A stretch of 64,000 bases of DNA from positions 248,001-312,000 of the forward strand of contig NZ_JACOEA010000003.1 of NCBI RefSeq assembly GCF_014281125.1, given 5' to 3'. This document shows positions 53,994 to 64,000 of the stretch, in pieces (the stretch's first letter is position 1; the number at the start of each line of letters is the position of its first letter). This stretch comes from Lawsonibacter celer (GTDB lineage Bacteria > Bacillota > Clostridia > Oscillospirales > Oscillospiraceae). The notes beneath the pieces are model-generated. The model searched no databases. It was given only the letters and a program-made list of their open reading frames with translations, and was not told the origin of the DNA. A program made the translations under genes and the position numbers.

Positions 53994-54578
53994 TCACCCG
54001 GCCGGTCCCAGCAGGAGCGGCTGGAGCTGCTTTCCCGCCAGAGCGGCCTCAATCGTCTGCGTCACCTGGCCGAAATCCGCCACCACGGAGGTGGGCTTCC
54101 TCACCGGGTCATCCTGGCGGAACGGGACAAAATACACGTTCTTTTTGTCCAGCAAAGCCCCGATGTTTTTGGCAGAGCCGGCCAGGGCATCATTGGTGGA
54201 TACGGCGATAACCAGGGGCCTGCCGTTGCGCAGGTGGGCCTTGGCCGCCATAGTCACCGCCGTGTCCGTAATCCCGCAGGCCAGCTTGGCCAGGGTGTTT
54301 CCCGTACAGGGACAGATGACCAGCACATCCAGCAGCCCCTGGGGACCGATGGGCTCTGCCTTTGCAATGGTGTCCACCACCCGTCTGCCGCAGATGCGCT
54401 CCATCTCCCGGAGGAAATCATGGGCGTTGCCGAAACGGGTGTCCGTGGCGGCGCTGGTTTCCGAGACAATAGGGACCACATCCTCAAACCTGGCGCGCAC
54501 CTGTTCCAAGGCCGCCATGGCCCGGTCGTAAGTACAGAAGGACCCGCAGAAGGCGTATCCCACTCTGATTGCTTCCAT
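53994..54578 (-). CDS. spoVFB: Dipicolinate synthase subunit B
   Basis: 194-residue flavoprotein-fold subunit. 'VGYAFCGSFCTYDRAMAALE' and 'VICPCTGNTLAKLACGITDTAVTMAAKAHL' match SpoVFB/DpaB. With subunit A it makes dipicolinic acid in the mother cell, the calcium chelator of the spore core. ATG at 54578 lies 2 nt after the spoVFA stop, so translation is coupled to spoVFA. Because spoVFA is split upstream, spoVFB is cut off from its natural promoter until the inserts are removed. Confidence 0.93.
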   Translation of the reverse strand: MEAIRVGYAFCGSFCTYDRAMAALEQVRARFEDVVPIVSETSAATDTRFGNAHDFLREMERICGRRVVDTIAKAEPIGPQGLLDVLVICPCTGNTLAKLACGITDTAVTMAAKAHLRNGRPLVIAVSTNDALAGSAKNIGALLDKKNVYFVPFRQDDPVRKPTSVVADFGQVTQTIEAALAGKQLQPLLLGPAG

Positions 54579-54580
54579 AG

Positions 54581-54721
54581 TTACACTCCCAACTCGTGCA
54601 GAATGTTATAAATGGTGTTTTTGATGCTTCTGCCCGCCGTCACCGGAGCCACCTTGCCGGGCAGGGACAGAGCCCAGATGACTCGTGTGCCCAGTCGGGC
54701 GGCGGCATCAAAGTCCACCCC
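54581..54721 (-). pseudogene. spoVFA: Dipicolinate synthase subunit A, 3' fragment (split gene)
   Basis: From the att core to the stop, 46 residues: 'GVDFDAAARLGTRVIWALSL' then 'PGKVAPVTAG', the C-terminal signature of SpoVFA/DpaA, ending in 'YNILHELGV'. No start codon or ribosome site belongs to it. Its first codon GGG begins at the central GG of the att site, in phase with the upstream fragment at 61115-61460. It is a split gene piece, not decay: no stops or frameshifts are seen. Confidence 0.9.
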
Positions 54722-54734
54722 GGCTGGTGTGGGA
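54704..54734 (-). other. Right attachment site (attR) of the spoVFA insert
   Basis: Minus strand: element arm TCCCACACCAGCC, core GG (54721-54720), then gene side GGTGGACTTTGATGCC. The element arm is the exact inverted copy of the arm at attL. Confidence 0.85.
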
Positions 54735-54751
54735 AATGGCCGGACCGGCGA

Positions 54752-54789
54752 CAAAAACAGCGTGGACGGGATCCCGTCCACGCTGTTTT
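54752..54789 (-). terminator. Terminator of the first serine recombinase
   Basis: Perfect stem AACAGCGTGGACGG with its complement around GATC, ending in TTTTTG on the minus strand, between the recombinase stop and attR. Confidence 0.88.
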
Positions 54790-54793
54790 CCCC

Positions 54794-56098
54794 TTATCCC
54801 TCCTGTGCCCGAAACCGAAACACCAACTCCAGCTCTCCCCGCTCCCCCACCAGGACGCGCTCCACCAGGGTAACCAGAGTCCTCCGCTCCGGCGGGTCAA
54901 AGGCGAGCAGCCGGCGGGCGGCCTGGACGGCGCGCTGGGGCTCCTCCGCTTTCTTTCGGCGGTTCGGGGCACAGACGAGCGCCTCCGGCCCGATTTCCGC
55001 ACTCAGGCGGCGCAGCTGGTCGGTCAGCGCCTGCAGGACCGCCGCCTCCCGCACCCGGTGGGGCGTACACAGGCCCAGCCGTCCGGAGCGGCGGTACCGG
55101 CTACACACCAGCACCGCGCCGCCCGCGGTCCGCACACAGGCCATGGGCGCGCCGCAGCAGGCACAGAACACAAGGCCGGTGAGCAGCCGGCGCGCCCCGG
55201 CCGCCGGGGTATAGCTGTGGGTGCGCAGCAGTCGCTGCGCCTGGTCAAAATCCGCCTGGCTGACCAGGGGCGCGTGGGTGTTGGGGATGGTGACCCACTC
55301 CTCCGCGGACAACGTCCGCCGACGGTTCACCTTATACCCCAGCTTTTCCGTGCGCCGCTGGGTCAGGTGCCCGGCGTAGGTGGGGTTGGTGAGGATCCGG
55401 CGCACCATGGTGTCGCTCCACACCCCGCCCCCCGCGCCGCTCCGGCAGGCCGCCGGGGTGGGCACCCCGGCCCGGGTAAGGGCCTTCGCGGTCCCCAGCA
55501 CAGACTCCAGAGCCAGATAGGTCTGAAACACCCGTACCGCCACCCAGGCGGCGGTGGGGTCGGGCAGCAGATGTCCCTTTTGCGCCGGGTCCTTTTGGTA
55601 GCCCAGCGGAGGTGCGGACCCGATAAACAGCCCCTCCCGTCTGCGGGTGTCCAGGGCGGTGCGCACCTTGCGGGAGATATCCGCAGTATAAAAATCGTTT
55701 GCTGCGGCCAGGAAGGGCAGCGCCAGGCTGTTCCCAAGGCCGGACGCCGTATCCACCCCCTCGTTGACTGCGATGTAGCGCACCCCGTGGGTGGGGAAAT
55801 AGACCTGATAATAGTAGAGGGTTCCGATCTGATCCCTGCCCAGGCGAGACAGATCCTTGGTGACCACCGTATCGATGCGCCGTGCCTCAATGTCCGCCAG
55901 CAGCCGCTGAAAAGCGGGCCGCTGGAAGGTTGTGCCCGACCACCCGTCGTCGGCGTACTCCGCCGCCGCCGTCCACCCCCGCTCTCGCACATAGCCCAGC
56001 AGAAAGGCCCGCTGGTTGGAGATACTCATGGATTCCTCCCGCCCATTCTCGTCGTCTCGGGACAGGCGGAGGTAAAGACCTACCCGCGGGGCGGCCAA
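54794..56098 (-). CDS. Large serine recombinase (first intervening element)
   Basis: 434 residues with the TTG start at 56098. Catalytic domain: nucleophile Ser13 in 'VGLYLRLSRDDENG', 'DGWSGTTFQRPAFQRLLADI' and 'VVTKDLSRLGRDQI' with the active-site Arg residues. A recombinase domain ('PPLGYQKDP', 'WSDTMVRRILTNPTYAGHL') and a zinc ribbon ('FCACCGAPMACV...C..C', about 308-345) follow; the coiled coil is short. Such enzymes integrate and excise DNA at attP/attB with a 2-bp core. TTG is chosen because ACGGGAG lies 5 nt upstream. It overlaps the small ORF by 19 nt and lies 60 bp from attR, so it is the likely excisionase-integrase of this element. Confidence 0.92.
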   Translation of the reverse strand: MAAPRVGLYLRLSRDDENGREESMSISNQRAFLLGYVRERGWTAAAEYADDGWSGTTFQRPAFQRLLADIEARRIDTVVTKDLSRLGRDQIGTLYYYQVYFPTHGVRYIAVNEGVDTASGLGNSLALPFLAAANDFYTADISRKVRTALDTRRREGLFIGSAPPLGYQKDPAQKGHLLPDPTAAWVAVRVFQTYLALESVLGTAKALTRAGVPTPAACRSGAGGGVWSDTMVRRILTNPTYAGHLTQRRTEKLGYKVNRRRTLSAEEWVTIPNTHAPLVSQADFDQAQRLLRTHSYTPAAGARRLLTGLVFCACCGAPMACVRTAGGAVLVCSRYRRSGRLGLCTPHRVREAAVLQALTDQLRRLSAEIGPEALVCAPNRRKKAEEPQRAVQAARRLLAFDPPERRTLVTLVERVLVGERGELELVFRFRAQEG

Positions 56099-56205
56099 GG
56101 CTGCTCCCGTTCCCCGTTTTCCAGCGCCAGCAGCTGCCGCAGCAGCTGTTCCAGCGTCTCCCCCTGCTCGGAAAAACGGCACGTCACCGGCACGTCGCGT
56201 TCCAT
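56080..56205 (-). CDS. 41-residue small protein upstream of the recombinase
   Basis: Starts ATG at 56205 with AAGGGGG 9 nt upstream and ends TAG at 56080, overlapping the recombinase start. It reads 'MERDVPVTCRFSEQGETLEQ' followed by 'LLRQLLALENGEREQ'; the middle is an amphipathic Leu-rich helix. Good ribosome site, overlap and position suggest a real, coupled gene. I do not recognise it. A recombination directionality factor or recombinase regulator is possible because the element shows no other small gene; this is inference. Confidence 0.6.
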   Translation of the reverse strand: MERDVPVTCRFSEQGETLEQLLRQLLALENGEREQPWPPRG

Positions 56206-56275
56206 TCCCCATCGCCCCCTTCTCCTGCTATGCTATTCTGCGGCGGGGACGGGTATGCCCGGCCGGCCCGGACAC

Positions 56276-56315
56276 AAAAAAGGGACCCCGGCCTGGCGGC
56301 CGGGGTCCCTTTTTT
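56276..56315. terminator. Terminator of the AtuA operon
   Basis: AAAAAAGGGACCCCGGCC and its complement with TTTTTT, between the AtuA-like gene and the recombinase gene. It isolates the cargo operon from the recombinase. Confidence 0.92.
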
Positions 56316-56321
56316 CAAAAT

Positions 56322-56621
56322 TCAGATGTCCATGTTCAGCAGGTAAGAGCTCAGGCCCTTGCCGTGCATATCCACAGACAGGGAGCGGGTCACGCCGCCG
56401 CCCAGGGCGGCGTACATGACGAAATTGAGGGCGTGGATGTTGGGTAGCTCATAGCGGACCACCTCGCCCTTGACCATGCCCTTGAAGTGCTCTTTTACCT
56501 TCTCGGCGGTGACCTTCTCCTTCAGGAGCTCAAAATCCTTGGGATCATAGGCGATGAGGGAGATATTGGAAATGTTGCCCTTGTCTCCGGTGCGGGAGTG
56601 GGCGATATCCCAGAGTTTCAT
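56322..56621 (-). CDS. AtuA-like small protein (AtuA-associated ferredoxin-fold)
   Basis: 99 residues matching the short C-terminal domain usually encoded with AtuA: 'LWDIAHSRTGDKGNISNISL' at the N-terminus and 'LNFVMYAALGGGVTRSLSVD'. In other genomes it is fused to or follows AtuA. It lies 14 bp after atuA, with AAGGAGG upstream of the ATG at 56621. Biochemical role unknown; probably a subunit of the AtuA enzyme. Confidence 0.85.
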   Translation of the reverse strand: MKLWDIAHSRTGDKGNISNISLIAYDPKDFELLKEKVTAEKVKEHFKGMVKGEVVRYELPNIHALNFVMYAALGGGVTRSLSVDMHGKGLSSYLLNMDI

Positions 56622-56635
56622 AGTGAAAAACCTCC

Positions 56636-57982
56636 TTAGACTTCAAAAATCTCAGCTTCGGGATGCACATCGTCGCGGTTGACCAGGATGGAGGCCACCG
56701 AGACGATGTCCCGGGTGCGCTTGACCGCGCCGCAGCCGCCGGCGGGGCCGTTGGTGTACAGGGCCTCCACCTCGTTGGCGATAATGTCGGCCTCGGCCTT
56801 GGTCTTGGCGCGGCCGGCCACCCGGACGCGCACCTCGCTGGGCTCTTCACTATACTTGAAGTCGGGGTTCCAGTACAGGCTGTTGCAGCCGATGATATCG
56901 AACTTCAGCTCGTCAAACACGTTGGGCGCAACCAGCTCCAGGCGCTCCTTCAGGATCTCCAGGGCCAGCTTGGCGCGGTTGACGCAGCCGGGGCCGCCGT
57001 AGCTGATTTCGCCGTCACCGATAAAGCAGTCGCGGTAGCCGATGGAACACTTGAAGGTCTGGGTCTTTTCCTTGCCGGTGGCGCCCTCTACCTTGACCAC
57101 ATCCTTGGCGGTCTGGGTGAACTTGACCTGCTTGAAGTTGGCCACCACGTCGGGGGTGAAGTAATTCTCCGGGTCGTGAATCTCGTAGACGATCTGCTCG
57201 GAGCAGGTCTCCACGGTGACCATGCCGCCCGCCTCGGGAACCTTGGTCACAAAGAAGGAGCCGTCCTCGCTGATCTCAATGATGGGGAAGCCCAGGTGGC
57301 CCACGCCGGGCACATCCTTTTTGCCGGGCTCGGCAAAGTAGCCGCCGGTGACCTGTCCGCCGCACTCCAGCAGGTGGCCCACCATGGTGCCCTTGCCCAG
57401 CTTATCCCAGTCGTCCAGAGACCAGCCGAACTCATGGATGATGGGGGCCATGAAGATGGCCGGGTCGGACACGCGGCCGGTGATGACCACGTCGGCGCCC
57501 AGATCCAGGGCCTTTAGAATGCCCTCCACACCCATGTAGGCGTTGGCGGAGACAATCTCGCCGGGCAGCTTGGACAGCGGCTCATGGGTCTCCCACACCT
57601 CAGTGTCCATATACTTGTCGATGACAGGCAACAGGTCGTCGCCGGTGACGCAGGCGATCTTCATGCCGCTGAGACCGTGCTTGCGGGCGATCTCCACGCA
57701 CTTCTTGGCCGCGGCCTGGGGATTGGCGGAGCCCATGTTGGTGATGAGCTTCACCTTGTGCTCCCAGCACAGGGGTAGAGCCTTCTCCATGCGGTGCTCC
57801 AGCAGGCCGTTATAGCCCTTGGTGGGGTCCTTCAGCTTGGCCTGCTGGCCGATGGCAATGGTGCGCTCAGCCAAGCACTCATAGCTGATGTAATCCAGGT
57901 TGCCCTTTTCAATGAGCTCCAGGGAGGGCTCCAGGCGGTCACCAGCGTAGCCCGCGCCGCTGCCGATACGGATGCTTCTCAT
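56636..57982 (-). CDS. AtuA family protein (DUF1446)
   Basis: 448 residues, DUF1446. 'IGSGAGYAGDRLEPSLELIE' begins the domain and 'GADVVITGRVSDPAIFMAPI', 'YGGPGCVNRAKLALEIL' are conserved. AtuA is named from acyclic terpene use in Pseudomonas, but in anaerobes with a CitMHS transporter the substrate is probably another hydroxy-acid or its CoA ester. ATG at 57982 has GAAAGGAAG upstream. Second gene of the sigma-54 operon in the intervening element. Confidence 0.88.
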   Translation of the reverse strand: MRSIRIGSGAGYAGDRLEPSLELIEKGNLDYISYECLAERTIAIGQQAKLKDPTKGYNGLLEHRMEKALPLCWEHKVKLITNMGSANPQAAAKKCVEIARKHGLSGMKIACVTGDDLLPVIDKYMDTEVWETHEPLSKLPGEIVSANAYMGVEGILKALDLGADVVITGRVSDPAIFMAPIIHEFGWSLDDWDKLGKGTMVGHLLECGGQVTGGYFAEPGKKDVPGVGHLGFPIIEISEDGSFFVTKVPEAGGMVTVETCSEQIVYEIHDPENYFTPDVVANFKQVKFTQTAKDVVKVEGATGKEKTQTFKCSIGYRDCFIGDGEISYGGPGCVNRAKLALEILKERLELVAPNVFDELKFDIIGCNSLYWNPDFKYSEEPSEVRVRVAGRAKTKAEADIIANEVEALYTNGPAGGCGAVKRTRDIVSVASILVNRDDVHPEAEIFEV

Positions 57983-58021
57983 AATAAGACTTCCTTTCTC
58001 AAACGAAACCTAGATGTATGG

Positions 58022-59401
58022 TCAGATGGTGATCCCACCGGTAATGACGCCCACCACCAGCATAATGATGGTCAGCAGGAAAGCCGCGGGGATGGTCTTT
58101 TTCTGGTGCTCGCCCAGGTCCACACCGGCCAGGCCCACCAGCAGGAAGGTGGAGGCAGTCAGCGGAGAGACCGGGAAGCCCGTGGTCATCTGGCCCAGGA
58201 TGGCGGCCTGACCCACGTTGACGCCGGCCACGCCGAAGCCCTCGGCGGTCTGTGCCAGCACGGGCAGTACGCCGTAGTAGAAGGAATCGGGGTCAAAGAG
58301 CAGAGAGGCGGGCATGGCAATCACGCCGGTGATAATGGGGAAGAAGCGGCCCAGAGACGCGGGAATCAGGGCGGTGAGGGCAGTGGCCATCTCGGTGATC
58401 ATGCCGGTGCCCTTCATAATGCCGGTAAAGCAGCCGGCGGCAAAGAGCACGGAGCACATCATCAGGCACTCCTTGGCATGGGCGTCCACACGGGCCTTGG
58501 ACTCCTTGACGCTGGGGTAGTTAATGACAGTGGCCAGCACATAGAACACCATAAAGACCACGGCCGGGGCAAAGCCGGAGAACAGCAGGGACAGAATCGC
58601 AGCAAGAATGAGAATAATGTTCACAGGGAACAGCTTGGGCCGCAGCAGGGCCTTCTGCTCATCGGTGAGCTCAGCGGCGGTGACGTTGGCGCTGGCCAGA
58701 GCCACAGCACCGATACGCGCCTTCTCACGCTTGCCCATAAAGGCGGCGAACACAACCACACAGACCAGACCCACGATGACCGCGGGCAGCACGGGCATAA
58801 ACAGATCCTTTACCACATCCACCTGCAGGGCGGTGGCGGCGCGAATGGTGGGGCCGCCCCAGGGGAGGATATTCATGGTGCCGGCGGCCAGGGCCACAAT
58901 GGTGGCCAAGGTGGTGCGCTTCATGCCCACCGCGTCGTACAGAGGCACCAGCGGAGGGATGCAGATCAGGAAGGTAACGGCGCCGGAGCCATCCAGATGG
59001 ACGCACATGGCCAGAATGGCAGTGCCGATGGCGATCTTTACCGGATCGGTGCCCATAAACTTGGTAATGCCGCCGATGATGGGGCGGAAGGTACCCGCGT
59101 CGGTCAGAACACCGAAGAACAGGATGGAGAAGATGAACATGACGCCGGTGGCGGCCACAGAGCCGATGCCGGAGGAGCCGGTGATCATCTTACCCAGGCT
59201 CTTGAAGTTGGCGACAAAGTCAATGACGCCGGGGGTCCCCTCTGCGGCCCCCTCCGGGACCACTGCGATGAAGAAGCAGGCGATAATGCCGGTAATGACG
59301 GGGACTGCGATCAGGGCCACCAGGGGTGACGCCTTTTTGGTCATAATGAGCACGAGCATCACGATGACCGTTACAAATCCGAGTATTGCGAGTGCTGACA
59401 T
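58022..59401 (-). CDS. CitMHS family transporter (organic acid/cation symporter)
   Basis: 459 residues with about 12 membrane segments. '[16 protein letters not shown]' and '[20 protein letters not shown]' fit the CitM/CitH N-terminal half, and '[28 protein letters not shown]' the substrate-site loop. It imports a di- or tricarboxylate with H+ or as a metal complex. ATG at 59401 has GAGGAGG upstream; longer frames cross the sigma-54 promoter. First gene of the operon, controlled by the activator encoded just upstream on the same strand. Confidence 0.87.
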
Positions 59402-59464
59402 GTTGGTATTCCTCCTCTTAACAAATTGCAACCAATTCCCAAAGCTGCGTACAGCCAAATTAAT

Positions 59465-59480
59465 TGCAATTTTCGTGCCA
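59465..59480 (-). promoter_or_regulatory. Sigma-54 promoter of the CitMHS-AtuA operon
   Basis: Minus strand TGGCACGAAAATTGCA, a perfect match to TGGCACG-N4-TTGCW, 64 bp before the CitMHS start. Confidence 0.93.
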
Positions 59481-59559
59481 ACTTTTAAGCAGCCGCTCTG
59501 TTTTCCCCGCAATCCGCTGCGCCCCAGCTGGTTTATCTTCCTTTTCCCACAAAGGATAA

Positions 59560-59600
59560 GGCCGCTCCAATTTCCAGTTTTTTAGAAATTGGGGCGGCCG
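59560..59600. repeat. Inverted repeat overlapping the first enhancer-like copy
   Basis: GCCGCTCCAATTTC (from 59561) pairs with GAAATTGGGGCGGC (to 59599) with one wobble and a 10-nt loop. It may terminate the activator transcript or present an activator site. Confidence 0.5.
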
Positions 59601-59680
59601 ATTTTCCCGAAAAAGGTCGGTGGTTCCTTGCCGTATCTGGTCTTTCTAAAATTCAAGAATACAATTCCAGTTTTTTAGAA
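59572..59680. promoter_or_regulatory. Three related 16-bp boxes, candidate enhancer sites
   Basis: TTCCAGTTTTTTAGAA occurs at 59572-59587 and 59665-59680; a related inverted copy TTCTAAAATTCAAGAA lies at 59644-59659. They sit about 95-215 bp upstream of the -24 element, typical enhancer distance for a sigma-54 activator. Confidence 0.65.
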
Positions 59681-61030
59681 TCATTTTTCATTTAATTTAT
59701 TGTAGAGGCTGGCCAGGGAAATCCCCAGCTCGGCGGCCGCTTTGCGCTTGCCCTCAGTGGTGGCTCCGTGACGGGCCAGGGCCTTGTCAATCTCCCGGCG
59801 TTCAAATTCCCGTACCCGCTGGGCCAGTGAGGCGGCCGCCGGCTTTTCTCCAAGACGGCTCAGGTCATCGGGCAGATTGTCCAGTCCAATCACCCCCTCC
59901 TGGGTCAGATAGGAGGAGAACTCCAGCACGTTGCGCAGCTCCCGCACGTTCCCCGGCCAGGTGTGGCGGCACAGTGCCTGCATGGCCTCATCGGTAATCC
60001 GGAGGGTACGGTGCAGCTTCCGTGAGAGTCCGGCGAGCAGATCTCTAGCCAGAACAGGAATATCCTCCACCCGCTCCCGCAGCGGCGGGATCCGGATCGG
60101 GAAGGTATTCAGCCGGTAATACAGGTCGCTGCGGAATTTTCCGGCTGCCGCATAGGCGCCCAGGTCCGCGTTACAGGCGGCAATCACCCGCACATCCACC
60201 TCCGCCTCCTTTACCGCGCCCACCGGGCGGATCCTCCGCTCCTGCAGTGCGCGCAGCAGCTTGGACTGCAGCGCCACGTCCATCTCCGAAATCTCGTCCA
60301 GGAAGAGCGTGCCACCGTCGGCGGCCTCAAACAGGCCCATTTTCCCGCCCTTTTTTGCGCCGGTAAAGGCCCCCTCCGCATAGCCGAACAGCTCTGATTC
60401 CAAAATATTGGCGTTGAAGTTGGAGCAGTTGATGGCCACAAATACGCTGTCCCGCCGGGGGCTGGCGTTGTGAATCGCCTGGGCATAGAGCTCTTTGCCT
60501 GTTCCGCTCTCCGACTCCAGCAGGACCGTGGCGTCCGTGGCGGCAATCCTCTCCGCCCGCTGCTTAACCTGCCGGGAGGCGGGGCTGACCGCCGTAATGT
60601 CGTCAAAGGTATATCGGGCACCATTCGCTTTGCTGATCGACCGCAGCACCTGGCGGCTGCGCAGCTCGATGGCCTCCAGCTCCTCCCGCGCTCGGTACGC
60701 GTCCTCCAGGAATGTGACCACCGAAAGGCCGCCCACCAGGGTCCCCTCCTGATAGATCGGGTACATGTTGACAAAGTAAAAGTCCTGGATCTCTTTCCGG
60801 GTTAGGTGGAGAATAGGCTTCCCCTCCTCCAGCACGTCAGGCAGACGGGCGCCCGGGCGCAGGTCCCGCAGGCGGTAGCCCTCAATCGGCCCCACGTCCC
60901 CGCCGGCCTCATTGTTGAGGAATTCCCGATAGGCCTTATTGCCGAAGACAATTGTGCCCTCGGTGTCGATGATGGTAATCCCCTCCCGCATGGCGTCAAA
61001 AGCGCTGCGGGCATCCTGGCCGAGCTGCAT
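59681..61030 (-). CDS. Sigma-54-dependent activator (PAS-AAA+-Fis HTH) of the intervening element
   Basis: 449 residues. PAS domain about 8-120 ('AMREGITIIDTEGTIVFGNKAY'), Walker A 'SESGTGKE' (about 172-179), an intact GAFTGA loop (about 220-225), Walker B 'TLFLDEISEM', and a Fis-type HTH ('KRKAAAELGISLASLYNKL'). ATG at 61030 has GGAGAGGG upstream and a sigma-A promoter at 61057-61085. It lies upstream of, and codirectional with, the CitMHS-AtuA operon, whose sigma-54 promoter it should activate. It is the gene next to attL, so cargo regulation is wholly inside the element. Confidence 0.93.
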   Translation of the reverse strand: MQLGQDARSAFDAMREGITIIDTEGTIVFGNKAYREFLNNEAGGDVGPIEGYRLRDLRPGARLPDVLEEGKPILHLTRKEIQDFYFVNMYPIYQEGTLVGGLSVVTFLEDAYRAREELEAIELRSRQVLRSISKANGARYTFDDITAVSPASRQVKQRAERIAATDATVLLESESGTGKELYAQAIHNASPRRDSVFVAINCSNFNANILESELFGYAEGAFTGAKKGGKMGLFEAADGGTLFLDEISEMDVALQSKLLRALQERRIRPVGAVKEAEVDVRVIAACNADLGAYAAAGKFRSDLYYRLNTFPIRIPPLRERVEDIPVLARDLLAGLSRKLHRTLRITDEAMQALCRHTWPGNVRELRNVLEFSSYLTQEGVIGLDNLPDDLSRLGEKPAAASLAQRVREFERREIDKALARHGATTEGKRKAAAELGISLASLYNKLNEK

Positions 61031-61056
61031 AGGACCCTCTCCTCTCTGTGCCTCCT

Positions 61057-61085
61057 ATTGTATCGGAGTGGGCAGCCAAGTGCAA
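61057..61085 (-). promoter_or_regulatory. Promoter of the element's activator gene
   Basis: Minus strand TTGCAC (61085-61080), 17-bp spacer, TACAAT (61062-61057), only 16 bp inside attL. It belongs to the element, so the activator does not depend on spoVFA transcription. Confidence 0.7.
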
Positions 61086-61100
61086 TCCTTTTATCATAAA

Positions 61101-61131
61101 TCCCACACCAGCCCCGCCCGGCTTTGATGCC
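61101..61131 (-). other. Left attachment site (attL) of the spoVFA insert
   Basis: Minus strand: gene side GGCATCAAAGCCGGGC, core GG (61115-61114), element arm GGCTGGTGTGGGA. The outer ten bases GGCATCAAAG are the inverted copy of CTTTGATGCC at attR. Confidence 0.85.
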
Positions 61132-61460
61132 AGGTCGATGACCAGGCTCCCTGGGCGCAGGTCCTCCAGTTCCTCTTCCCCCAGCAGGCGGACGGGCGCG
61201 GTGTTGATGACCAGGTCGCTGCGGCACAGACGGCCCGCCAGCTCCCCCATGGGCACGCTCTCATAGCCAAAGGCCTCCGCCCAGGCCAGATCCGAGCACT
61301 TCCTGGCAGCCACCGCCACCCGCGCCCCCAGGGCGGCAAACCGGTTGGCGAGCACCTTTCCCAGCCGGCCATAGCCCAGGATGAGCACGTTGGCCTCCTG
61401 CAGGGTGATGGGCAGCTCTTCCATGGCGATCTGAACGGCCCCCTCTGCGGTAGGTACCGC
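61115..61460 (-). pseudogene. spoVFA: Dipicolinate synthase subunit A, middle fragment (split gene)
   Basis: Open in one frame from 'AVPTAEGAVQIAMEELPITL' through 'VLILGYGRLGKVLANRFAAL' (NADP-binding turn) to 'LVIDLASKPGG'. These are consecutive parts of SpoVFA/DpaA from about residue 130 to 250. The N-terminal domain is missing upstream, where a second serine recombinase ends; the C-terminus continues at 54721 after removal of the 6.4-kb insert. An in-frame ATG at 61424 has no ribosome site, so this is not an independent gene. Confidence 0.9.
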
Positions 61461-61463
61461 CTT
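61447..61463 (-). other. Candidate attachment junction of the second element
   Basis: The recombinase stop codon (61464-61462) abuts the first conserved spoVFA residues. GCGGTA-CC-TACCGC (61460-61447) is a perfect short palindrome whose central CC may be the crossover. The partner site is outside the window, so exact limits are unproven. Confidence 0.45.
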
Positions 61464-62868
61464 AGCGATAACAGCCCGGCCTGGGGAGCACGATCGGATC
61501 CCGCCGCCCCCAAAGCCGGAGCTCCAGGCGGTCCGGGTAGACCACCGCCCGCTCCACCGCCGCGGCCAGCTCCCGCTCTCCGGCCGCCGGGGCGGCGGAG
61601 GTCTGCGCCGCCCGCTTGTCCAGGCGGGTCAGCTCCCGCTCGTACTTTTCCCGCGCCAGCGCCAGCTCCTCCCGGGTAATGGCCCCCGCCAGATAGGCGT
61701 CCACCGCCCGGGTGCGGCGTGCCACCAGACGGGCCCGCCGCTCCGCCAGATGGCCGGCGGCGTCCTCCTCCGGTGGCGCGGGCCGTTCCCCCAGCGCCTG
61801 CGCCGCGCAGGCGGTCAGCATTTCGTGCTCCACCGGGGCCAGAGTGCAGCGCTCCTCCCCGGTCCGGCCGCCGCAGGTCCAGGTGTGGACGGCGCTGCCG
61901 TCCCTCCGGCGGCGGATACGGGAGGTCAGGCGGCCGCCGCACAGGCCGCAAGTCAGCTTGCCGGAGCACCAGTAGCGGCCGGAATAGCGGCTGCCCTCTC
62001 CCCGCGCCGCCGCCCGCCGGGCCAGCTCGGCCTGAACCGCCTCCCAGACGGGCCGCTCCACAATGGCCGGGTGGTGGTCCCGCAGATAGATCTGTTCCTC
62101 CATGCCCCGGTTTTCCACCTTCCGGTGGGTGAGATAGTCGGTAGTAATGTACTTCTTCTGCAGCAGATCGCCCACATACTTCTCGTTGCGCAGCAACCGC
62201 AGCACCATGGTGGAGGACCAGGCAGCCGCCCGGGGGGGCTGCACCCCCTCCTCATTCAGCTCCCGGGCAATGACATAGGTCCCCTTGCCCTCCTGAAGAA
62301 ACCGCCGGTAGACCTCCCGCACCACTCCGGCCTCCCCCTCCCGGATGGACAGCCGTCCCTTTTGAGTGGCATAGCCGTAGGTGCTGTCGTTGCCGAAGGC
62401 CACCCCCGCCTCCATCCGCCGCAGCTGCCCCCACTTTACCCGCTGGGAGGTCTTGCGTGACTCCTCCTGTGCCATGCTGGCCATGATGGTCAGCCGCAGC
62501 TCCCCGTCGTTGTCCCTGGTGTCGATATGGTCGGAGAGGAAGCGTACGCCCACTCCTATCTGTAATAATTTTCTGGTATATTCCAATGTGTCAACGGTAT
62601 TTCGGGCAAAACGGGAGACCTCCTTGGTCAGGATCAGGTCCAGCCGGCCGTTTTCCGCATCCCGGAGCAGCCGCTGAAACGCCTGCCTGCGGCGGGTGCT
62701 GGTGCCCGAAACCCCCTCGTCCGCATAGACCCCCGCCAGGCTCCATCCCGGGTGTGCGTCAATGTAGTCCTGAAAATACCGCTGCTGGCTGCGCAGGGAA
62801 TTGGCCTGGTCCTCCCGGTCGGTGGACACCCGGCAGTAGGCCGCCACCCGCAGCTTTGCCTGTTCCAC
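61462..62868 (-). CDS. Large serine recombinase (second intervening element)
   Basis: 468 residues from GTG 62868, which has AAGGGGG 9 nt upstream. Nucleophile Ser15 in 'VAAYCRVSTDREDQANSL', then 'EGVSGTSTRRRQAFQRLL' and 'LILTKEVSRFARNTVDTLE'. A recombinase domain ('FGNDSTYGYATQKGRL', 'WSSTMVLRLLRNEKYVGDLL'), a zinc ribbon ('CGLCGG...C...C', about 300-335) and a C-terminal coiled coil (about 355-420) follow. It differs clearly from the first recombinase, so the two elements have separate origins. Its stop codon lies within a few bases of the spoVFA junction, the same end-proximal placement as in the first element. Confidence 0.92.
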   Translation of the reverse strand: MEQAKLRVAAYCRVSTDREDQANSLRSQQRYFQDYIDAHPGWSLAGVYADEGVSGTSTRRRQAFQRLLRDAENGRLDLILTKEVSRFARNTVDTLEYTRKLLQIGVGVRFLSDHIDTRDNDGELRLTIMASMAQEESRKTSQRVKWGQLRRMEAGVAFGNDSTYGYATQKGRLSIREGEAGVVREVYRRFLQEGKGTYVIARELNEEGVQPPRAAAWSSTMVLRLLRNEKYVGDLLQKKYITTDYLTHRKVENRGMEEQIYLRDHHPAIVERPVWEAVQAELARRAAARGEGSRYSGRYWCSGKLTCGLCGGRLTSRIRRRRDGSAVHTWTCGGRTGEERCTLAPVEHEMLTACAAQALGERPAPPEEDAAGHLAERRARLVARRTRAVDAYLAGAITREELALAREKYERELTRLDKRAAQTSAAPAAGERELAAAVERAVVYPDRLELRLWGRRDPIVLPRPGCYR

Positions 62869-62989: not shown

Positions 62990-63577
62990 ATGGCAAGGAA
63001 ATCCGCCCGCAATACCCGGGGCAAGATTGTCAGCGCTGCCTGGAAGCTCTTTTATGAGCAGGGGTACGAGCACACCACGGTGGAGGAAATCATCGATCTG
63101 TCTCGCACCTCCAAGGGTTCCTTCTACCACTATTTTGACGGCAAGGACGCCCTGCTGAGCACCCTGAGCGACCTGTTCGACGAAAAGTATGAGGCCCTGC
63201 GGGAGACCATGGACCCAGCTATGCCCGCCATGGAGCAGCTTCTTTTTCTCAACAGTGAGCTTTTCGGCATGATCGAGGACAGCGTCTCCTTGGAGCTGCT
63301 CTCCCGGCTGCTCTCCACCCAGCTGGTGACCAGCGGTGAAAAGCACCTATTGGACCACAAGCGCACCTACTACCGCCTGCTGCGCCGCATTATTGCCGAC
63401 GGGCAGTCCTCCGGACAGTTCTCCTCCAAACGGAGTGTCAATGAGCTGGTTAAGCTCTACGCCCTGTGCGAGCGCGCCCTTCTGTATGACTGGTGCCTGT
63501 GCGGCGGGGAATATAACCTGCGGGATTACGCCGCTCAGGTTCTGCCCCATTTTTTGAGCGGTTTCCTTCCAGGCTAG
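62990..63577 (+). CDS. TetR/AcrR family regulator
   Basis: 195 residues. N-terminal HTH: 'KIVSAAWKLFYEQGYEHTTV' then 'EEIIDLSRTSKGSFYHYFDGKDALL', the standard TetR DNA-binding unit; the C-terminal helical domain binds an unknown ligand. GGAGGAGG lies upstream of the ATG at 62990. The next gene downstream encodes a sodium symporter, and a 46-bp perfect palindrome between them is a likely operator. Located in the second element. Confidence 0.9.
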   Translation: MARKSARNTRGKIVSAAWKLFYEQGYEHTTVEEIIDLSRTSKGSFYHYFDGKDALLSTLSDLFDEKYEALRETMDPAMPAMEQLLFLNSELFGMIEDSVSLELLSRLLSTQLVTSGEKHLLDHKRTYYRLLRRIIADGQSSGQFSSKRSVNELVKLYALCERALLYDWCLCGGEYNLRDYAAQVLPHFLSGFLPG

Positions 63578-63790: not shown

Positions 63791-64000
63791 ATGACCACAG
63801 CACAAATCTGTATCCTTGCGGCCATTGTGATCTATCTGGTGGCAATGGTCCTTGTCGGCGTCTATTTCAGCCGGAAAGGCAGCGGCGACTCCTCCGACCA
63901 GTTCTATCTGGGCGGGCGCGGCCTGGGCCCCATCGTGACCGCCATGAGCGCGGAGGCCTCCGATATGAGCAGCTATCTGCTGATGGGGCTGCCCGGCCTG
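63791..64000 (+). CDS. Sodium:solute (proline-type) symporter, 5' part only
   Basis: 70 codons up to the window edge. 'VIYLVAMVLVGVYFSRKGSG', 'DQFYLGGRGLGPIVTAMSAE' and 'ASDMSSYLLMGLPG' match the N-terminus of PutP, the sodium/proline symporter; the SAEASDMSS stretch includes sodium-site residues. ATG at 63791 follows GGGGAGG. Probably regulated by the TetR protein upstream. Confidence 0.88.
   Translation, partial: MTTAQICILAAIVIYLVAMVLVGVYFSRKGSGDSSDQFYLGGRGLGPIVTAMSAEASDMSSYLLMGLPGL

Follow-up and report, generated by a model that had tools for sequence, protein, structure and literature searches.

Two site-dedicated serine-recombinase elements split the dipicolinate synthase gene spoVFA in Lawsonibacter celer and its relatives

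Organization of the split spoVFA locus

Dipicolinic acid is the compound that protects spores from heat. We analysed a 64,000-nt stretch of the Lawsonibacter celer genome (contig NZ_JACOEA010000003.1, positions 248,001 to 312,000; hereafter the window, whose own coordinates are used throughout), in which spoVFA (dpaA), the gene for dipicolinate synthase subunit A, lies on the minus strand and is interrupted by two recombinase elements, one at a site here called A and the other at a site called B. All features described below are on the minus strand unless stated otherwise. The C-terminal fragment, of 46 amino acids (aa) plus a stop codon, occupies 54581..54721 and matched positions 248-290 of PRK08306 (dipicolinate synthase subunit A; E 5.6e-13). 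Directly downstream of the spoVFA end lies an intact spoVFB (dpaB; 53994..54578), which scored 253.7 bits against the TIGR02852 cut-off of 229. The middle fragment, at 61115..61454, runs from Pro133 to Gly246, residues being numbered as in the intact DpaA of locus L056. By itself it gave no family match in the profile search, and tblastn aligned it with residues 128-246 of that protein, at 64% identity. The N-terminal piece was absent from the window, where tblastn returned only residues 128-246 and 244-290.

At site A, the two fragments share a GG core, found at 54720..54721 on the C-terminal side, where it forms positions 1-2 of the Gly246 codon, and at 61114..61115 on the N-terminal side. 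The frame joined across site A is open and reads LASKPGGVDFDAAARLG. When rebuilt, the empty attachment site (attB) is palindromic, with the arms GGCATCAAAG (61122..61131) and CTTTGATGCC (54704..54713), and the ends of element A, TCCCACACCAGCC (54722..54734) and GGCTGGTGTGGGA (61101..61113), form a perfect 13-bp inverted repeat around GG. The perfect repeat, the rebuilt arms and the same-codon join seen in 12 of 12 genomes indicate that the shared GG is more than chance. The core of site B is CC, positions 1-2 of the Pro133 codon; its C-terminal side was located at 61453..61454, and its other side is beyond the window. The element of recombinase B adjoins the middle fragment beyond this CC, and spoVFA is therefore broken twice. 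Since GG and CC fill the first two positions of four-fold degenerate codons, crossover at either core preserves both the frame and the residue. In an alignment with the solved DpaA structure 2rir, site B falls at the PTVEG segment, ahead of the second domain.

An earlier, sequence-only reading of this DNA had described spoVFA as split in frame by one serine-recombinase element of about 6.4 kb with a shared GG core and an open joined frame, and coupled to spoVFB; these features were borne out. Its limits for the C-terminal fragment were also correct, whereas the middle fragment proved to be bounded by CC at 61453-61454 instead of ending at 61460. Element A was described correctly, and the second element, at site B, had been missed.

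Recurrence of the two breaks and conservation of the fragments

Relatives were taken from two sets, the best 80 loci of a longer list obtained by a SpoVFB scan, mostly from Flavonifractor, Pseudoflavonifractor or Oscillospiraceae, and 250 genomes of the family searched for DpaA matches (G and L numbers denote genomes and loci). In the first set, spoVFA was split in 13 of the 80 loci. In the second, 199 genomes had a DpaA match and 20 of these had at least two, comprising 16 splits verified at the joint, one split by position only (G112) and three non-splits (G014, G048 and G086). At least 17 of the 199 therefore carry a split spoVFA, a count in which genomes with a single partial match were only partly examined. 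Uninterrupted genes, which the sequence-only reading had proposed to look for, were found in many related genomes.

We studied 24 split relatives together with the window, and the breaks fell at the same two sites, with 12 cases at A (Gly246) and 22 at B (Pro133), the window included. Nine genes were split at both sites (the window, G001, G002, G003, G004, G013, G061, G162 and G171), three at A only (G010, G057 and G193) and 13 at B only (G005, G006, G007, G008, G009, G011, G012, G028, G036, G043, G058, G088 and G246). Named isolates with a split gene were Flavonifractor plautii ATCC 29863 (G007), Flintibacter muris DSM 110149 (G012), P. gallinarum DSM 107456 (G010) and C. viride DSM 6836 (G013). 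In G171 both elements, of ~32 and 44 kb, lie in the expected order within a single 3.67-Mb contig. The fragments joined in frame at the same codon in all 12 cases at site A and in all 20 cases at site B with both sides visible, site B being visible from one side only in the window and G061. Identical sequence at the joints was as short as 3 nt for A (in G171) and 2 nt for B (in G009), indicating that the cores are GG and CC. An adjoining spoVFB was present at the spoVFA end fragment in 25 of 25 split loci. We regard it as confirmed that the recurrent split of spoVFA is real and that two independent, site-dedicated elements are involved.

Several other candidates were not counted as breaks. A third break in G061, suggested by a piece covering residues 203-250, was rejected because the contig ends there. 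At L067 of G014 (L067:3445-4328), two matches in different frames lie 8-14 bases apart near site B with no element between them, which may reflect an indel, a frameshift, a sequencing error or a decayed site. G048 carries two full-length dpaA-like genes (contigs C61 and C4), the second match of G086 is partial and at a contig edge, and at L033 and L075 it is the end of a contig that cuts the gene. An unusual arrangement was seen in Flavonifractor sp. An10 (G005; contig C10, L122/L128), in which 261 kb separate the N part (132354-132776) of spoVFA from the C part (393808-394293), both being on the same strand and in inverse order. Everything else on the chromosome would then count as the element, unless this contig reflects a misassembly or a rearrangement.

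The fragments bear the marks of a gene under selection. The fragment cores of the 25 split genes, 24 of them from the relatives, contained no stop codons or frameshifts (the N piece of the window and the middle piece of G061 were left out). Over pairs with a synonymous distance (dS) below 2, the median ratio of nonsynonymous to synonymous substitution (dN/dS) in split genomes was 0.39, 0.32 and 0.21 for the N, middle and C pieces, respectively, indicating purifying selection; the corresponding values for 53 intact loci were 0.43, 0.44 and 0.28. For the close pair G001-G002, both double-split, the ratios were 0.19, 0.07 and 0, and for G004-G193, both split at A, they were 0.18, 0.17 and 0.07. 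A second full-length DpaA was not found in any of the 24 split relatives, in which other matches scored below 27 bits; the window's own genome was outside this search.

Recombinases, predicted promoters and cargo of the elements

Each window element carries a large serine recombinase with PF00239 and PF07508 matches. The site-A enzyme (54794..56098; 434 aa) likely starts at a TTG, with an in-frame ATG at 56212, and also matches the zinc ribbon PF13408. The site-B enzyme (61462..62868; 468 aa, likely GTG start), for which the PF13408 score was 23.7 bits, under the 25.3-bit cut-off, is encoded right next to the middle fragment, with its stop 7 bases from the site B core. Among the relatives, a large serine recombinase was present at every element except the B elements of G043 and G061, where the enzyme gene fell beyond the DNA retrieved; G008 has an additional, unrelated one. 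The site-A (n = 12) and site-B (n = 20) recombinases formed separate clades in a tree of 33 rows, with support of 97/99 and 100/100, and the window enzymes belong to the respective clades; rows shorter than 400 aa, among them the truncated B enzyme of G171, were excluded from the tree. Among the portion of candidates scored in each of the 250 genomes, the ten best matches to recombinase A (50-65% identity) came from exactly the ten site-A-split genomes of this set and lay inside the element; the next match had 47% identity. Recombinase distances followed those of host SpoVFB (Mantel r 0.70, n = 12, and 0.60, n = 19; p 0.0005 each), as expected if inheritance is mostly vertical.

The recombinase B family is broader than the A family, and a one-to-one tie between it and spoVFA was rejected, because relatives of 49-62% identity lie beside broken catalase genes in genomes with an intact spoVFA. 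These B-like enzymes were near manganese catalase (CotJC-type) genes at loci L157-L168 (G038, G194, G066, G049, G081, G199, G088, G219, G080, G154, G124 and G094); G088 has catalase gene pieces as well as a spoVFA split at site B. A full-length PF05067 match was found in none of the 12 genomes searched, a comparison made without an intact-gene control. A break near profile position 61-66 was visible from at least one side in 12 of 12 and from both sides in 9 of 12, and in some genomes the gene was in three pieces. In G016 (L148:1-4911), a recombinase 47% identical to recombinase A of the window separates two parts of a LysM-M14 peptidase gene, the ends of which show a GGG core resembling site A, and in G121 (L147:2177-4515) an enzyme of this type is found next to the C-terminal part of such a gene.

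Small open reading frames (ORFs) precede many of the recombinases. In the window, a 41-aa ORF (56080..56205) overlaps the start of recombinase A, and homologous ORFs of 37-50 aa overlap the start of the site-A recombinase in 12 of 12 cases. In leave-one-out ranking among 590 small ORFs, the A ORF came first in 11 of 12 cases, narrowly for G010, and second for G162. The two A ORFs tested had no Pfam match. The layout, which is that of skr-spoIVCA, suggests that this ORF encodes a directionality factor. A different, SHOCT-like ORF was found before 14 of the 21 visible B operons, and each of its 13 aligned copies ranked first among the 590; one of three B ORFs tested matched SHOCT, below the gathering score (24.5 vs 27 bits). 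It was not found for element B of the window or for G004, G005, G007, G088, G162 or G246.

The upstream regions of 55 spoVFA genes share a −35 element CACCcc followed, mostly after 11-12 nt, by a −10 element gGcATAggATGG, that is, AC, 16-17 nt and CATA. According to PMC3789822, AC is the −35 motif of sigma-K, the −10 is common to sigma-E and sigma-K, and dpaAB of Clostridioides difficile is a sigma-K operon. The sigma-K-like −10 was retained in all 21 split spoVFA genes tested (upstream sequence suited to the test was lacking for the window, G009, G028 and G043). Homology, the sigma-K-like promoter and the C. difficile operon together point to the interrupted spoVFA as a mother-cell gene. A predicted sigma-K-like promoter, TACCCG-n10-AGAATAGCATAG, was also found upstream of the recombinase A operon of the window (56228..56255; p 0.005 vs 200 shuffles). 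With four near-copies dropped (G002, G193, G012 and G058b), tests of the −10 alone gave a Fisher p of 9e-7 for the A operons (n = 10, five below 0.05) and 3e-4 for the B operons (n = 17, four below 0.05), whereas the cargo genes showed no enrichment (p 0.92; n = 67, 4.5% below 0.05).

Element A of the window is 6,394 bp long, with a G+C content of 0.62 (0.61 for the window). Besides the recombinase operon, it contains genes for an AtuA ferredoxin-like protein (56322..56621; PF23544), an AtuA family protein (56636..57982; PF07287), a citrate transporter of the CitMHS type (58022..59401; TIGR00784, above cut-off) and a sigma-54-dependent activator (59681..61030; PF00158). In element B, a TetR-family regulator gene (62990..63577, plus strand; PF00440) and the start of a sodium:solute symporter gene (63791..64000, plus strand; PF00474), cut by the window end, were identified. 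Among the relatives, the length of element B ranges from about 2.7 to 43 kb. A phage origin of the window cargo was not supported, the families in element A being metabolic or regulatory. Phage records matched recombinase A at ~40% identity at best and recombinase B at 54% in one unannotated faecal record, in both cases among the matches listed.

Despite the largely vertical pattern of the recombinases, cargo varied among hosts. G001 and G002 share genes for a methylglyoxal synthase and an RlmI-like methyltransferase, and G057 carries a GntR-type regulator and an ABC ATPase. The site-A element of G193 (L129) contains ThiF, ThiH and TenI/ThiE-like cargo, with homologous ORFs in G004 (L111), so that thiamine biosynthesis genes are carried within spoVFA elements of both genomes. 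The site-B element of G058 (L137) is a single ~16 kb element with a G+C content of 0.33 and two site-B-type recombinases, each preceded by a small ORF.

Predicted excision and comparison with known systems

Excision of both elements in the mother cell is very probably the best explanation of these data, the act and its timing being predictions. A mother-cell sigma factor (E or K) would switch on the recombinase operons, and at site A the overlapping protein of ~40 aa may act as a directionality factor, like Skr in Bacillus subtilis skin. Each recombinase would serve one pair of sites, the GG cores at Gly246 for A and the CC cores at Pro133 for B. The excised circles and the metabolic cargo on them would perish with the mother cell, and the forespore would retain the split gene. 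Where both elements are present, dipicolinate synthesis would need both excisions, as in a two-key lock. The proposal of the sequence-only reading, an element in spoVFA that is excised in sporulation, is thus supported, as far as sequence comparison goes, by the lack of stops, purifying selection, the lack of a second copy in the relatives and the spoVFA-like −10 at the recombinase operons as a group.

Several points weigh against mother-cell excision. A search of IMG/VR with three att patterns gave no match to a joined gene or an excised circle. The far end of element B is outside the window, no small ORF was found before the window's recombinase B, and the −10 of that gene was non-significant (p 0.15). 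The A operons of G013, G061 and G171 had no −10 box, and the B operons as a group reached p 0.057 when the −35 was included. The recombinase operons are related by descent, which makes the promoter p values generous. Several of the relatives are incomplete metagenome-assembled genomes.

A plain inactivating insertion, which would have destroyed spoVFA and left the hosts without this route to dipicolinate, seems very unlikely. No excision was seen, and the intact gene is kept in many relatives; in 51 of the 250 family genomes, among the matches listed, a DpaA match is lacking, suggesting that loss of the gene may be tolerated. However, the cores free of stops and frameshifts, with purifying selection acting while the gene is split, the promoter retained in every case tested and the constant presence of spoVFB beside the end fragment are not what inactivation predicts, and the insertions always fall at two codons that permit exact restoration.

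Serine-recombinase elements are generally integrative islands that leave at random or on stress. The metabolic cargo and the missing mother-cell-like −10 at some recombinase operons would agree with elements of this usual kind that excise off the sporulation schedule, with spoVFA serving as a safe attachment site. Taken as a group, the recombinase operons are enriched in the spoVFA-like −10 and the cargo genes are not, which argues against this, as do recombinase distances that track the host, and we consider such islands also very unlikely, if anything slightly more so. That the pieces function unjoined as separate polypeptides, or that the split is an assembly artefact, is hardly credible. 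The position of site B before the second DpaA domain might allow a split protein to reassemble there, but the C-terminal piece has just 46 residues, and the downstream frames continue backwards into the DNA of the element. Many of the assemblies come from metagenomes, but the split is present in the four named isolates and in the single large contig of G171.

Beyond mother-cell excision of the spoVFA elements, it seems reasonably probable that gut Oscillospiraceae possess a soma/germline programme, in which mother-cell genes are kept in pieces, dedicated recombinase clades with coupled directionality proteins serve the breaks, and the genes are put together again only in the doomed mother cell, while in the germline copy the elements bring along metabolic genes of the ordinary sort. 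Such a programme would embrace spoVFA in up to three pieces, cotJC-type catalase genes in up to three and M14 peptidase genes in two, and would be a bacterial counterpart of ciliate DNA elimination with a two-recombinase AND gate on dipicolinate. A review (PMC8953710) lists F. plautii as a spore-forming gut commensal. Should excision be confirmed, growing cells of common gut commensals, among them F. plautii ATCC 29863, would possess a key gene for spore resistance only in fragments, and any pipeline that takes an intact dpaA as its measure of sporulation would get these species wrong. Natural att sites, in matched sets, accompany both recombinase clades, and with breaks that recur, the question of why mobile DNA settles in genes that only a dying cell uses becomes open to test.

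Interruption of sporulation genes is known for sigK, spoVFB, spoVR, spsM, gerE, yabG and kamA from PMC4191935, PMC10747680, PMC5595907, PMC6957869 and PMC5025042, on which the comparisons below draw. No report of a split spoVFA or cotJC was found among the best-ranked literature, most subscription papers and preprints being outside its scope, and a sporulation gene with two breaks was likewise absent from the papers found, although no search was aimed at double splits. The closest case by function is vfbin in spoVFB of Bacillus weihenstephanensis KBAB4, reported to be excised in sporulation (cited in PMC4191935, PMC10747680 and PMC6957869). It likewise splits a mother-cell gene for a dipicolinate synthase subunit; however, vfbin is described as phage-like and makes one break in spoVFB, whereas here spoVFB is intact and the insertions are in spoVFA. 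The skin elements that interrupt sigK in B. subtilis and C. difficile (PMC6957869, PMC5025042) share with the present elements a serine recombinase and precise in-frame restoration, and they have a small directionality factor, for which there is a candidate here at site A. In B. subtilis, the reading frame of the 64-aa Skr shares 101 nt with the 5′ end of spoIVCA and lies downstream of a sigma-E promoter (PMC6957869), the same layout as that of the site-A small ORF, for which the corresponding role is predicted. Unlike the two elements at two codons described here, skin is phage-derived and breaks its gene once.

Among non-phage elements, gin in gerE of Bacillus cereus ATCC10987 (28.6 kb, three recombinases; PMC5595907), the excision of which has been shown, also interrupts a mother-cell gene and uses a serine recombinase; gin itself has a directionality factor. 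It is described from one gene in one strain, whereas the site-dedicated recombinase clades at spoVFA are found in one species after another, with metabolic cargo that changes. SP-beta in spsM and yin in yabG (PMC4191935, PMC10747680) are further reversible interruptions of sporulation genes by recombinase elements, but they are prophages or prophage-like, lie in other genes and make a single break. The spoVFA elements are of the same kind as skin, vfbin and gin in having their own recombinase, a shared core and frame-restoring removal. What is new here is the gene, its double split, the site-dedicated recombinase clades and the recurrence with metabolic cargo.

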